Source of the DNA: Mucilaginibacter daejeonensis
GTDB lineage: Bacteria > Bacteroidota > Bacteroidia > Sphingobacteriales > Sphingobacteriaceae
DNA: 64,000 nt
Reading direction: 5' to 3'
Assembly: GCF_020783335.1 (NCBI RefSeq)
Contig: NZ_CP086068.1
Span: 3,534,001 to 3,598,000 of the forward strand
The notes under the pieces were generated by a model. It was not told the DNA's origin. It did not search any database and worked only from the letters and a program-made list of their open reading frames with translations. Both the position numbers and the translations under genes were made by a program. Below, piece by piece: positions 8,899-13,352 of the stretch. Within the stretch, counting starts at the first letter, position 1, and every line of letters begins with the position of its first letter.

Positions 8899-9669
8899 TT
8901 ATTCTCTTACGCCTTTGACGAACTCACCTATCCGCTCTAAATAGTTCTCTTCGCCTAAAAACTTCACGAAGGCACTGCCTACGATGGCACCGTTAGCATA
9001 TGAGGTAGCTTTATCAAAAGCCGCTTTATTGCCAATACCGAAGCCGATCACCACAGGGTTGTTCAACTGCATGTCCTTGATGCGTTGAAAATAGGTCTCC
9101 ACCGAATCATTGATCTCCAGGCTGCGGCCGGTGATCGATGCTGATGATAGCAGGTAGATGAAGCTGTTGCTCAACTCATCGATCTTGCGAATGCGTGCCT
9201 CGGCGGTTTGCGGCGTCACCAGGAAGATGTTGCTGATGTTGTGTTTGGCAAAGCAGTCCTTATAAAGGGTCTCGTACTCATACATGGGCAGGTCGGGCAC
9301 GATCACACCATCTACCCCCACCTCGGCTGCCTTGGCACAAAAGTTCTCTACGCCGTACTGTACCATTGGGTTGGCATAGCCCATCAGCAGCACCGGGATG
9401 CTCACTCGCTTACGCAGATCAGCCAGTTGTTCGAACAGCAACTTGAGCGTCATGCCATTATCCAGCGCTTTTTGCGAGCTGTTTTGGATGGTAGGTCCGT
9501 CGGCTACCGGATCAGAGTACGGGAAACCGATCTCTAAAAAATCCACACCGGCCTTTTCCAAGGCTTCAGCGATATCTAAAGTAGTATTCAGTTCAGGATA
9601 GCCGGCAGTAAAATATACCGATAGCAAGTTGTTCTTTTTAGTAGCGAACAGTTGGTTAAGGCGGTTCAT
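8899..9669 (-). CDS. trpA: Tryptophan synthase alpha subunit
   Basis: The alpha subunit cleaves indole-3-glycerol phosphate to indole, which is channelled to TrpB. At 256 residues it is of normal length. The catalytic Glu46 lies in FLEIGFPYSDPVADGP with the second acid at Asp57; VIVPDLP, FLVTPQT and GFGIG phosphate-binding segments are present. It is the last gene of the trp unit, 27 bases beyond the inserted 148-residue gene rather than directly beyond trpB as is usual. Confidence 0.97.
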   Translation of the reverse strand: MNRLNQLFATKKNNLLSVYFTAGYPELNTTLDIAEALEKAGVDFLEIGFPYSDPVADGPTIQNSSQKALDNGMTLKLLFEQLADLRKRVSIPVLLMGYANPMVQYGVENFCAKAAEVGVDGVIVPDLPMYEYETLYKDCFAKHNISNIFLVTPQTAEARIRKIDELSNSFIYLLSSASITGRSLEINDSVETYFQRIKDMQLNNPVVIGFGIGNKAAFDKATSYANGAIVGSAFVKFLGEENYLERIGEFVKGVRE

Positions 9670-9696
9670 TGTTTGTCTAATTAATACGGTCGATCG

Positions 9697-10143
9697 TTAA
9701 CGAGTTCTTATCATGAAGACCATCTCTATCAGATCAACTTGGGTTGCTTTGAAGTAAGTATCGCTTACGCGGCGTGAAAAGCCTATTTCAAATGAATCGG
9801 TTATGGCTTCAAGTTCAAAAATAAATTGGTTGTTCTTTACAGGAATGGAGCAATCCTTTCCAGATATAAGCTTGCCTGCAAATTGAAAGCATCCTCCGTA
9901 CAAGTGCTCCTCGTTTCCATAATCCGTGAGCTCTGCTTCTTTTGCGAGATCGACGCCTAAATCTTCAAAGAGTTGCTTTATTTCAAGTGGATATAAACGG
10001 TCTTTTATTTCGATGAAATAACTACAATTGCTGCAGTTGCACTTCTCTGCATCGGTCACAGTAATATTGTTATATAACAATTGAGTTAACGGTCGATCAA
10101 CTTCCATTACCCATCCTCTATATCTAACAATTTTAAGAGGCAT
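9697..10143 (-). CDS. Unknown protein inserted between trpB and trpA
   Basis: A 148-residue soluble protein with no known role in tryptophan synthesis. It has a Cys cluster CNCSNC (residues 36-41), a LYPLEIKQLFEDLGVD helix and a YGGCFQFAGKL segment; the Cys cluster could bind metal. It starts 4 bases after the trpB stop codon and ends 27 bases before trpA, so it must be co-transcribed. The gene is visibly more AT-rich than trpB and trpA, which suggests later acquisition (inference). It resembles small DUF-type cytoplasmic proteins, but I cannot name the family. Confidence 0.65.
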   Translation of the reverse strand: MPLKIVRYRGWVMEVDRPLTQLLYNNITVTDAEKCNCSNCSYFIEIKDRLYPLEIKQLFEDLGVDLAKEAELTDYGNEEHLYGGCFQFAGKLISGKDCSIPVKNNQFIFELEAITDSFEIGFSRRVSDTYFKATQVDLIEMVFMIRTR

Positions 10144-10147
10144 TTAG

Positions 10148-11329
10148 CTAAAATCCGAAATGTTTGATATAAGTGCTCAGGTCCTTATCTCCACGGCCTG
10201 ACAGGCATACTACTACGTTATCGGTAGGTTCAAATTTCATTTTCTCGAGGTAGGCAAAAGCGTGGGCCGATTCAATGGCCGGGATGATGCCTTCCAGTTG
10301 CGATAACAGTAGGCCGGCATCTAATGATTCTTCATCGGTAATGTTCACATACTGTGCACGCTGTATCTTGTGCAAATGCGCATGCTGCGGACCAATGCCT
10401 GGGTAATCCAGGCCTGCTGATATGGAATATGGTTCTACCACCTGCCCGTCATCGGTCTGCATCAATATGGTACGGCTACCGTGCAGGATGCCTTCGCGGC
10501 CCAGTACTGAGGTTGCTGCAGAATGACCGCTATCTACCCCTTTTCCGGCGGCCTCAACGGCGATCAGTTTCACGCTTTCATCCTCTAAAAAGTGGTAGAA
10601 CATGCCCATGGCGTTGCTGCCACCACCCACGCAGGCCAGCACGTATTGCGGCAATTCGCTGCCGGTATGCTCGAGTAATTGTTTCTTGGTCTCTAACGAG
10701 ATAATGGACTGGAACTTAGCCACCATTTCGGGGTATGGGTACGGGCCCACCACCGAGCCGATGATGTAGTGAGTATCTACCGGGTTATTGATCCAGTCGC
10801 GCATGGCCTCATTGGTGGCGTCCTTCAGGGTCTTGCTGCCTGAGGTGGCCGGCACTACGGTAGCACCCAGCATTTTCATACGGGCCACGTTAGGGGCCTG
10901 GCGCTCCATGTCGATCTCGCCCATGTATACCACGCATTCGATACCCATTAGGGCGCAAACGGTGGCGGTGGCCACGCCATGCTGACCGGCACCGGTCTCT
11001 GCTATGATACGTTTTTTGCCCAGGCGCTGGGCTAACAGGATCTGCCCGATGGCGTTATTGATCTTGTGCGATCCGGTATGGTTTAGATCCTCGCGCTTGA
11101 GGAAGATGTTGGCACTATACTTTTCAGACAGCCGCTTGGCATGGTACAAAGGCGAAGGGCGGCCTACATAATCCTTCAGCAGGCTTTCGAACTCGGCCTT
11201 GAAGCTTTCGTCGGTAATGATGGCCTGATATTGCTGGCGCAGCTCTTCAATGTTGGGGTACAACATCTCGGGGATGTACGCTCCGCCAAAATCACCATAA
11301 TATCCCTGCTCGTTAACTGAATACTTCAT
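10148..11329 (-). CDS. trpB: Tryptophan synthase beta subunit
   Basis: PLP enzyme that joins indole and serine to tryptophan. At 393 residues it has normal length. The PLP lysine is Lys89 in [20 protein letters not shown] and the glycine-rich phosphate site [10 protein letters not shown] are intact, as is SGRGDKD near the C-terminus. It begins 2 bases after the trpF stop codon. It forms an alpha2beta2 complex with TrpA, encoded one gene downstream. Confidence 0.97.
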
Positions 11330-11331
11330 CG

Positions 11332-11949
11332 TTATGCTCGTAATATTTCGAATGCTTTACGCAATCTGTCAATGTCCTTAATTCCGGGCCCGGTCTCGAA
11401 CCTGCTGTTGAGGTCAACACCATAAAAGGCCGGATGTTGCAAATTTTTCACGCTTTCAAGGTTCTCTAAGCTCAAACCGCCTGATAAAAAGAAGGGCACC
11501 TCAAGCTGATAGCTATCAAGCACCCGCCAATCGAACGTTACGCCAGATCCACCGTGCGCTTCGGTCTTGGTGTCGAACAGGAAGTGATCCACCACACCCA
11601 CGTATGGCTTCAGCACCTGCATATCGAACTGTTCGTTAACACCAAAGGCCTTGATCACCTTGGCACGATCACGAAGTGCAGCGCAAACCTCCGGGCTTTC
11701 GGCTCCATGAAGTTGTACCGCATCAAGGCCATGTGCATCGATCAGCTGGTCAATGGTGTCGATGTCCTCGTTCACAAAAACACCAGTTTTGATGATCGGT
11801 TCGTGTGCCGCGCTCAGGGCTTCCTGTATCCATTCTCCCACATACCTGGGCGATCGGCTGTAAAAAATGAAGCCGAGCAGGTCAGGATGCAGCGCTGCTA
11901 CTTTCCTTATGTTAGCCGGGTCTCTCATCCCGCAAACCTTGATCTTCAT
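11332..11949 (-). CDS. trpF: Phosphoribosylanthranilate isomerase
   Basis: Converts phosphoribosylanthranilate to CdRP, the step after TrpD. The 205-residue TIM barrel begins [14 protein letters not shown], with the catalytic Cys in KVCGM; the [22 protein letters not shown] and FFLSGGLS segments are typical. It lies 34 bases beyond trpD. The trpC gene that would normally sit between trpD and trpF is missing from this unit. Confidence 0.95.
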
Positions 11950-11983: not shown

Positions 11984-12973
11984 TTATTGATCCAATAATA
12001 GCTTGAAGCTTTTCAGCGCCTTGCCGCTTAGCAAAGCATCCTCGGCCTCATAAAAACTATCGGCAAAGGTCTTTTCAGGCGTGATAGTGCGTATGGCCAG
12101 TGCAGCGTTGCACAATACTACGTTATTTTGCGCAGTGGAGGCCTCGCCGTTCAATACTTTCATAAAGATCTCGGCCGATCCGGCTACCGTGTGGCCACCT
12201 GCTATCTCGTTCGGGTCCAGTTTATCAAAGCCTAATCCGGCAATGCTGTTAATCTGCTCGCCCTGGCTCGAAAAGGTCTTGAAGTCGCCTGTTAACGATA
12301 TTTCATCATAACCATCCAGCGCGTTAACGATCGTATACTTCACGTCCGACCGTTGATACAGGTAAGCATACAAGCGGGCCAATTCCAAGTTATACACCCC
12401 TACCATCTGGTTCTTAGGCCTGGCCGGGTTCACCATGGGGCCCAACATGTTAAAAAAGGTCTTCACGCTGAGCTCGCGGCGTATCGGCGCCACGGTCTTC
12501 ATGGCTGGATGGAACAACGGGGCATGCAAAAAGCAGATGCCTGCTCTGTCCAACCCACGGCTTAGCTCGTCCATATCGTTGGTGAACTGGTAACCCAGGT
12601 ACTCCATCACGTTGGATGAACCACAGCCTGATGACACGCCGTAGTTACCATGCTTAGCCACCTTATACCCCGCTCCTGCCACCACGAACGATGCCAGGGT
12701 AGAGATGTTAAAAGTATCCTTGCCGTCGCCGCCGGTACCGCAAAGGTCGATCAGGTCGCCGGCGTCCAGTTGTACGGGCAGGCAAAGCTCCAGCATCGCA
12801 TCTCTGAAACCTTCCAGTTCGTGCACCGTGATGGTGCGCATACAATAGGCGGTCATAAAGGCAGCCATTTGCGTGGCGTTATATTGGCCCTGGGCAATGT
12901 TGGTCAGTATCTCTTTCGATTGCTCGCGGCTAAAGGTCTTGTGCTCAAATAAATGGTTCAGTATGGCTTTCAT
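11984..12973 (-). CDS. trpD: Anthranilate phosphoribosyltransferase
   Basis: Transfers phosphoribose from PRPP to anthranilate. At 329 residues it is standard length. The PRPP site LCGTGGDGKDTFNISTL and the KHGNYGVSSGCGSSNVME block are clear, followed by GPMVNPA. It is the first structural gene of the unit and lies downstream of the Trp attenuator, with about 100 bases holding a decayed repeat between the attenuator and the ATG. The anthranilate synthase genes trpE and trpG are not upstream. Confidence 0.96.
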   Translation of the reverse strand: MKAILNHLFEHKTFSREQSKEILTNIAQGQYNATQMAAFMTAYCMRTITVHELEGFRDAMLELCLPVQLDAGDLIDLCGTGGDGKDTFNISTLASFVVAGAGYKVAKHGNYGVSSGCGSSNVMEYLGYQFTNDMDELSRGLDRAGICFLHAPLFHPAMKTVAPIRRELSVKTFFNMLGPMVNPARPKNQMVGVYNLELARLYAYLYQRSDVKYTIVNALDGYDEISLTGDFKTFSSQGEQINSIAGLGFDKLDPNEIAGGHTVAGSAEIFMKVLNGEASTAQNNVVLCNAALAIRTITPEKTFADSFYEAEDALLSGKALKSFKLLLDQ

Positions 12974-13021
12974 TACCCAGTGCCCTTTTTAAGGGGACTT
13001 ATATCGTTAGTGTTGTTATTT

Positions 13022-13065
13022 CCCCTGGATATTCACCCGCTTCTCCGTCAGGGGGCCGGAGGGCA
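13022..13065. repeat. Decayed palindromic repeat between attenuator and trpD
   Basis: On the minus strand GCCCTCCGGCCCCCTGACGG followed by AGAAGCGGG resembles the repeat at 8742-8769. It may have been inserted into the trp leader after the attenuator was in place. Confidence 0.45.
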
Positions 13066-13072
13066 TGGACAC

Positions 13073-13103
13073 AAAAAAAGGGCTGCCTGATGGCAACCCT
13101 TTT
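13073..13103 (-). terminator. trp attenuator (Rho-independent) hairpin
   Basis: On the minus strand arms AAAAGGGTTGCC (13103-13092) and GGCAGCCCTTTT (13087-13076) pair over 12 bp with one G-U, loop ATCA, followed by a run of T. It lies between trpL and trpD, so it must be bypassed for trp expression. Confidence 0.9.
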
Positions 13104-13132
13104 GTATACGTTCACATAAACAGGAAGTTGCC
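13092..13132 (-). promoter_or_regulatory. Competing antiterminator pairing of the trp leader
   Basis: GGCAAC (13132-13127), directly after the trpL stop codon, is perfectly complementary to GTTGCC (13097-13092) in the 5' arm of the terminator; two further G-U pairs extend it to 8 bp. A ribosome at the stop codon would cover GGCAAC and let the terminator form, while one stalled at the Trp codons would leave it free. Confidence 0.85.
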
Positions 13133-13180
13133 TTACGATCTCTCGTTCAGCCACCACCAGTTGTTGTTCATTAGTTTCAT
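13133..13180 (-). CDS. trpL: trp operon leader peptide with three consecutive Trp codons
   Basis: The 15-codon frame reads MKLMNNNWWWLNERS and ends in TAA. Three TGG codons lie in a row at 13159-13151. It is the first open frame after a strong promoter and is followed immediately by the antiterminator segment and then the terminator, the arrangement of a ribosome-mediated attenuator. Translation may begin at the first or fourth codon. Stalling at the Trp codons when charged tRNA-Trp is scarce would favour antitermination and expression of trpD-F-B-A. This reading comes from the sequence alone but is strongly supported by the arrangement. Confidence 0.92.
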   Translation of the reverse strand: MKLMNNNWWWLNERS

Positions 13181-13192
13181 TTCTGTATGCGG

Positions 13193-13223
13193 CAAATATG
13201 ATGATAGTTTTTGAAAATGCAAA
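13193..13223 (-). promoter_or_regulatory. trp operon promoter
   Basis: On the minus strand TTTG (13223-13220), 19 bases, then CATATTTG (13200-13193), one mismatch from TAnnTTTG. The predicted start falls a few bases before the trpL ATG at 13180. Confidence 0.75.
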
Positions 13224-13352
13224 TATGATCGCACTTTTTACCATCACCAAAATTTCAAACCGCTTGGGCGAATCTTGTGGGTTAATTAAATAAACTATTA
13301 ATAAACATGCACCCCATCATAAGGGTTATATTCAAAACATCAACAAAAGCTT

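Follow-up and report, generated by a model that had tools for sequence, protein, structure and literature searches.

The trpD leader of Mucilaginibacter

The window analysed here is a 64 kb stretch of the Mucilaginibacter daejeonensis genome, which carries on its minus strand a set of tryptophan biosynthesis genes headed by trpD (11984..12973), the first structural gene, with a match of 300.9 bits to TIGR01245 against a cut-off of 199. Behind it lie trpF (11332-11949), whose best matches are phosphoribosylanthranilate isomerase models, below their cut-offs, then trpB (10148-11329) and trpA (8899-9669), both above their NCBIfam cut-offs, and between the latter two a 148-aa open-reading frame (9697-10143) that belongs to no matched family (no NCBIfam match at E ≤ 0.001, no Pfam match at E ≤ 1). 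The four frames behind trpD (8899..11949) are presumably co-transcribed with it, and the gene order trpD-trpF-trpB-trpA is also present in named relatives. TrpD of the window shares 84% identity with the M. aquatilis protein, and its nearest named TrpD proteins are from Mucilaginibacter.

Upstream of trpD, and also on the minus strand, a promoter-like element of the Bacteroidota -33/-7 type, TTTG-N19-CATATTTG (13193..13223), differs by one mismatch from TTTG-N19-TAnnTTTG, which we take to be the promoter consensus of this phylum, and its -7 block, AT.TTTG, is invariant in all 30 aligned trpD leaders of the family (Sphingobacteriaceae). The original prediction had described a strong promoter at this place; what stands is the Bacteroidota-type element, whereas the list from a sigma-70 promoter scan lacks it (13223-13193). 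The element is followed by a leader peptide frame, MKLMNNNWWWLNERS, of 15 codons and a TAA stop (13133..13180, ATG at 13180), containing three putative regulatory Trp codons, TGGTGGTGG (13151..13159), a sequence that occurs a single time in the 64 kb window with both strands counted. The core of a 1:2 hairpin, ACGA gaga TCGT (13135..13146), is predicted by RNAalifold from the alignment and is weak in the window copy. Directly 3' of the leader stop lies segment 2 of the putative antiterminator, GGCAACTT (13125..13132), which pairs with the 5' arm of the terminator, where sequence and alignment place segment 3, GGGTTGCC (13092..13099), as both terminator 5' arm and antiterminator partner. The intrinsic terminator, identified from sequence and folding (13073..13103, stem-loop 13103-13076), consists of a 12-bp stem (six of the 12 pairs G-C), a 4-nt loop and a T-run reaching 13073, and lies ~100 nt upstream of the trpD start (12973). 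The 15-codon leader, a GGCAAC that adjoins its stop codon and the 12-bp terminator with its GTTGCC, all claimed originally to lie in this order before trpD, are present in the sequence.

Conservation of the leader before trpD

A trpD gene was detected in 135 of the 151 Sphingobacteriaceae genomes, and the 30 best loci out of these 135 genomes formed the family sample. All 30 possess a Trp-rich mini-ORF and a terminator, that is, a frame rich in codons for the regulated amino acid ahead of the genes for its biosynthesis, and the Trp run is WWW in 29 of them and WW in one. The terminator pattern, GGTTGC with a T-run, was derived from these same 30 loci, and a strict, pattern-free scan also gives a terminator at 30 of 30. 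A further 12 trpD loci were picked by hand across genera and are not a random draw, the remaining trpD matches lying outside the sample; nine of the 12 carry leader and terminator, and three are without a leader. As the original prediction had made the Trp codons and the pairing in related genomes the point on which it could fail, the 30 and the nine loci uphold it and the three do not. Two of these three, both from genus g3 (L211 and L212), have the promoter-like and terminator sequences and no Trp-rich frame, an arrangement that is possibly a decayed attenuator.

When the controls were scanned for a mini-ORF containing W.?W together with a terminator by the strict rule, none had both (0 of 110 reverse-strand regions, 0 of 550 shuffles), the mini-ORF alone being found in 5 of 110 and 31 of 550, respectively. 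These controls bear on a reading in which the Trp-rich frame is a chance open-reading frame and the hairpin serves either to end a transcript from upstream or as a terminator that acts constitutively in the 5'-UTR. Taken by itself the window locus supports attenuation only moderately, the energy of its antiterminator duplex being matched by 7% of shuffles (p = 0.07). However, the gene neighbouring the leader on the upstream side is divergent, the combination recurs at 30 of 30 and nine of 12 family loci against none of the 110 and 550 controls, and the Trp codons are kept whilst the adjacent Asn codons vary synonymously (see below), and we regard chance as exceedingly improbable.

RNA structure and ribosome position

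Folding of the leader RNA gives -36.5 kcal/mol, 3.7 sd better than shuffled sequences (z -3.7). The RNAalifold consensus of the 30 trpD leaders comprises the terminator (nine pairs) and a hairpin (11 pairs) that links segment 2 to the Trp codons. Changes on both sides of a pair were seen at four of the 20 predicted pairs, all in the 1:2 hairpin. Within the 30-leader trpD set the antiterminator helix showed no such both-sided changes, because both of its arms hardly vary; 94.6% of its cells are paired across the 30 sequences, compared with at most 47.9% when the segment is slid. At the 30 trpD loci the segment-to-arm pairing averaged -12.2 kcal/mol versus -6.9 kcal/mol in shuffles (p ≤ 0.05 in 22 of 30), with p ≤ 0.05 also at five of the nine further and 38 of 51 named trpD loci, and at 47 leaders found before trpE (see below) the values were -12.0 versus -8.0 kcal/mol (p ≤ 0.05 in 20 of 47). 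Identical leaders were removed before these calculations and those on ribosome position. Judged by sequence and prediction, the terminator and the antiterminator appear to be mutually exclusive.

To place the ribosome on the leader, we computed the upstream pairing of the terminator 5' arm before the 3' arm exists, with ribosome-covered bases hidden and the footprint assumed to reach 9 nt past the A-site codon. In the window copy, a ribosome stalled at the Trp codons gave a 5'-arm pairing of 0.96 and one at the stop codon 0.06, and the value without a ribosome was again 0.96. Since the antiterminator is predicted to be favoured there without a ribosome, the textbook 1:2 hairpin that should protect against it is weak in this copy, a correction to the original claim that the classical pairing rules are satisfied exactly. 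Mean pairing at the 30 trpD loci was 0.85 stalled, 0.23 at the stop and 0.43 without a ribosome, and at the 47 trpE loci 0.62, 0.19 and 0.45, respectively. The difference between stalled and stop positions exceeded 0.05 in every locus of the three trpD sets (30/30, 9/9 and 51/51) and in 39 of 47 trpE leaders, two of the 47 having the opposite sign (below -0.05). With the intervening sequence shuffled, the 30 trpD loci gave 0.50 stalled versus 0.42 at the stop, and the mean difference was only 0.06-0.10 over the sets; the real difference was reached by at most one of 20 shuffles at 23/30, 8/9 and 32/51 trpD loci and at 25/47 trpE loci. With the assumed footprint, the calculation predicts that the position of the ribosome decides the RNA structure, and taken together with the pairing results the geometry agrees with classical attenuation, more closely at trpD than at trpE.

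Two further readings keep the hairpin or the regulation and dispense with part of this model. In one, control would not involve stalling and would be exerted by a protein that binds Trp, similar to TRAP or TrpR, or else by a T-box or a Trp riboswitch; the loci L211 and L212, which keep the promoter-like and terminator sequences without a Trp frame, fit such control in that the hairpin is able to persist without the frame. Conservation of the Trp codons, however, points to translation, no match to the Trp repressor (TrpR) family or to the T-box (RF00230) was found in the genome, which makes both of these unlikely, and none of the leader's matches in Rfam is a known riboswitch; we consider non-stalling control very improbable as a whole. 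In the other reading, attenuation would rely on uncoupling and Rho, or act on how the downstream gene is translated, instead of using an intrinsic terminator. A leader start only 2-16 nt past the -7-like element is an unusual context for initiation and would suit that reading, but the perfect 12-bp stem with its T-run, ~100 nt ahead of the trpD start, and the retention of the terminator stem in the 30 aligned leaders speak against it, and it too seems highly unlikely.

Ribosome-mediated attenuation, as originally proposed, is the reading that best accounts for parts found in order in 30 of 30 relatives and for a predicted structure that depends on ribosome position, and we consider it very probable that the Mucilaginibacter trpDFBA operon is controlled here by a ribosome-mediated transcription attenuator. 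Transcription would begin a few bases ahead of the leader ATG. With ample charged tRNA-Trp, the ribosome would reach the stop codon and cover GGCAACTT, the terminator would form and transcription would stop before trpD. Under tryptophan shortage, a ribosome stalled on the three Trp codons would leave GGCAACTT free to pair with GGGUUGCC once this is made, so that no terminator would form and the polymerase would enter trpD-F-B-A.

Spread across the phylum

Similar leaders were found before trpE, which was sought in 128 genomes of the phylum and matched at E ≤ 1e-80 in 98, all 98 upstream regions being scanned. A Trp-rich mini-ORF precedes trpE at 71 of the 98 loci, with WWW in 61 of the 71, and at 47 of the 98 it is accompanied by a terminator under the strict rule. 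The other 27 loci are without a leader, 18 of them in a single family (f18). The trpE leaders of family f17 (L132-L135, L150, L154, L156 and L158) have three to five interleaved Trp codons, for example FTWAWFWF and WSFWAWWW.

A covariance model (R1), built solely from the 30 trpD leaders and searched against 395 phylum genomes irrespective of genes, found 70 places in 61 genomes at E ≤ 0.01. Ahead of trp genes were 51 of these 70 (39 before trpE, 11 before trpD and one before a trpB-trpE operon), and of the 19 others two are His-rich leaders and 17, judged by eye, resemble terminators with a similar sequence. Both His-rich leaders (L078 and L081) are from another family and are followed by what look by eye like terminator-like hairpins. 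His-rich mini-ORFs also occur ~300-420 nt before a HisG match at 20 of 22 loci of the Mucilaginibacter family (L301, L294-L315), the one in the window's own genome being MKGLTLHHLHMHHRPLWR; the same scan gave no simple terminator for these frames. By their sequence, the frames before hisG are possible his attenuators.

Relation to known leaders

The E. coli trpL leader has two adjacent Trp codons. Its family, RF00513 (Trp_leader), resembles the window leader in having Trp codons, a 2:3 antiterminator and a 3:4 terminator before trp genes, whereas the window copy has three adjacent Trp codons, a probable near-leaderless start and a weak 1:2 hairpin. No match to RF00513 was found at E ≤ 10 in positions 12980-13300 of the window, and two relatives (L098 and L044) match it below its cut-off.

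A search of the window at the Rfam gathering score gave no match to a leader of this type and suggested that nothing of the kind was known, but a sensitive search found RF01692 (Bacteroid-trp), with 29.7 bits and E 0.15 in 321 bases (12980-13300) over the full length of the model (positions 1-131), against a cut-off of 49. The window Trp codons fall on UGGuGGUG of the model and the terminator arm on its 3' end. At E ≤ 0.001, RF01692 has no match in the genome of the window copy, and within the family 16 of 17 places at this threshold are directly before trpD. The cut-off itself is passed in eight of 151 family genomes, with seven of the eight places directly before trpD, which puts the trpD copies within reach of Rfam, though rarely above its cut-off. 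Similarly, at 20 trpE loci the cut-off is passed at eight and the direct scan finds a Trp-rich leader at all 20. Given that the direct scan also yields leaders at 39 of 42 family trpD loci in total, far above the counts at the Rfam cut-off, the Bacteroid-trp annotation in Rfam covers only part of these leaders.

The window leader and RF01692 share the phylum, a leader frame with Trp codons before trp genes, a 5' hairpin and the terminator 5' arm; they differ in that the window antiterminator is GGCAAC/GTTGCC, whereas the top-scoring Flavobacterium-like trpE leaders use other sequences. How often such a leader had been noted in this phylum was left open originally, and the answer is that it is already catalogued, both as RF01692 in Rfam and in a 2010 paper (Weinberg et al. 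2010; PMC2864571), in which Bacteroid-trp is given as a cis-regulatory Bacteroidetes motif. In further papers, Bacteroid-Trp RNA is likened to the E. coli trp leader and located upstream of the Flavobacterium psychrophilum trp operon (2019; PMC6414381), hints of attenuation by leader peptides ahead of amino-acid operons are given for the same species (PMC9723704), and short frames reminiscent of leader peptides are mentioned for B. thetaiotaomicron, within its long 5' UTRs (PMC7366714). F. psychrophilum belongs to the same phylum, and the passages in question on its attenuators describe no separate one before trpD (PMC9723704, PMC6414381). By the account of a 2010 article, no leader-peptide system had then been demonstrated in groups other than Proteobacteria and Actinobacteria (PMC2965389). 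Among the open-licence papers that our searches listed, none was found to describe a separate attenuator before trpD.

The window copy is a subthreshold relative of the catalogued leader rather than a new kind. The present analysis adds the breadth of such leaders past the Rfam cut-off, the probable near-leaderless start, the conserved Asn codons and, as set out below, a separate attenuator before trpD that is tied to trpD heading its own operon.

Position of trpD and the second leader

Among the matches listed, the best 80 named trpD loci, which partly overlap the family trpD sets, have trpD first in its operon in 61 cases and behind trpE-trpG in 19. Leader and terminator lie within 500 nt at 57 of the 61 loci with trpD first, and at none of the 19 with trpD behind trpE-trpG. 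The four trpD-first loci that fail the strict scan are L236, where a leader is present and the stem is imperfect, L238 and L239, where TGG runs of a putative frame close to the 500-nt limit are followed by a terminator, and L275, where neither leader nor terminator is visible upstream of trpD.

The trpE gene of the window's genome (G000:C1:344167-345573) lies with trpG, named from its sequence, and trpC, placed by PF00218 alone, at a distance from trpD of 3.2 Mb on the single 4.81-Mb contig of this genome, or 1.6 Mb in the opposite direction should this contig be circular. A second leader, MINNNNKMFWWHLSDKLAR, precedes this trpE (L031/L104, G000:C1 about 344,000), with GTTGGC opposite GCCAAC and a G+C-rich terminator. 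The two operons of the split pathway each therefore have their own Trp leader, and with the leader ahead of trpE-trpG-trpC acting as an attenuator on the same principle, each half of the pathway would possess its own Trp sensor.

Leader start and conserved Asn codons

A -7-like motif was found in 76 of 86 trpD leaders (in overlapping sets), with an in-frame ATG 2-16 nt downstream, and was not found in the other 10; in the window leader the first in-frame ATG is 12 nt past the motif. In Bacteroides promoters the start site lies a few bases past the -7 motif, and such spacing suggests that the leader peptides are probably near-leaderless, beginning almost at the 5' end of the RNA.

The codons ahead of the Trp run were counted in 77 distinct WWW leaders before trpD, as raw counts that ignore kinship. 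Directly before WWW (position -1) there are 50 AAY and no AAR codons, at -2 there are 50 AAY and nine AAR, and at -3 there are 56 AAY and no AAR, with both C and T used in the AAY codons at each of the three positions. Asn kept despite synonymous change points to selection on the residue or on its tRNA. In the trpE leaders, at least two Asn are present among the six residues ahead of the Trp run in 35 of 71, and Asn makes up 24% of the six residues before the run and 7% after it. A more far-reaching reading would combine these features into a widespread, near-leaderless trp attenuator of Bacteroidota, in which a nascent Asn-Asn-x before Trp-Trp-Trp is part of the sensor, its peptide or codon context making the stall sharper, and of which the Sphingobacteriaceae gained a second copy when their trp operon was split; we put this forward as a speculation that is rather unlikely to hold in full.

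The coincidence of a trpD-first operon with a second attenuator offers a clean case of regulation tracking gene order. Classical attenuation requires the coupling of ribosome and polymerase, and translation initiation in Bacteroidota is unusual; conserved attenuation of this type makes both the coupling and a translation start near the 5' end directly testable in the phylum.
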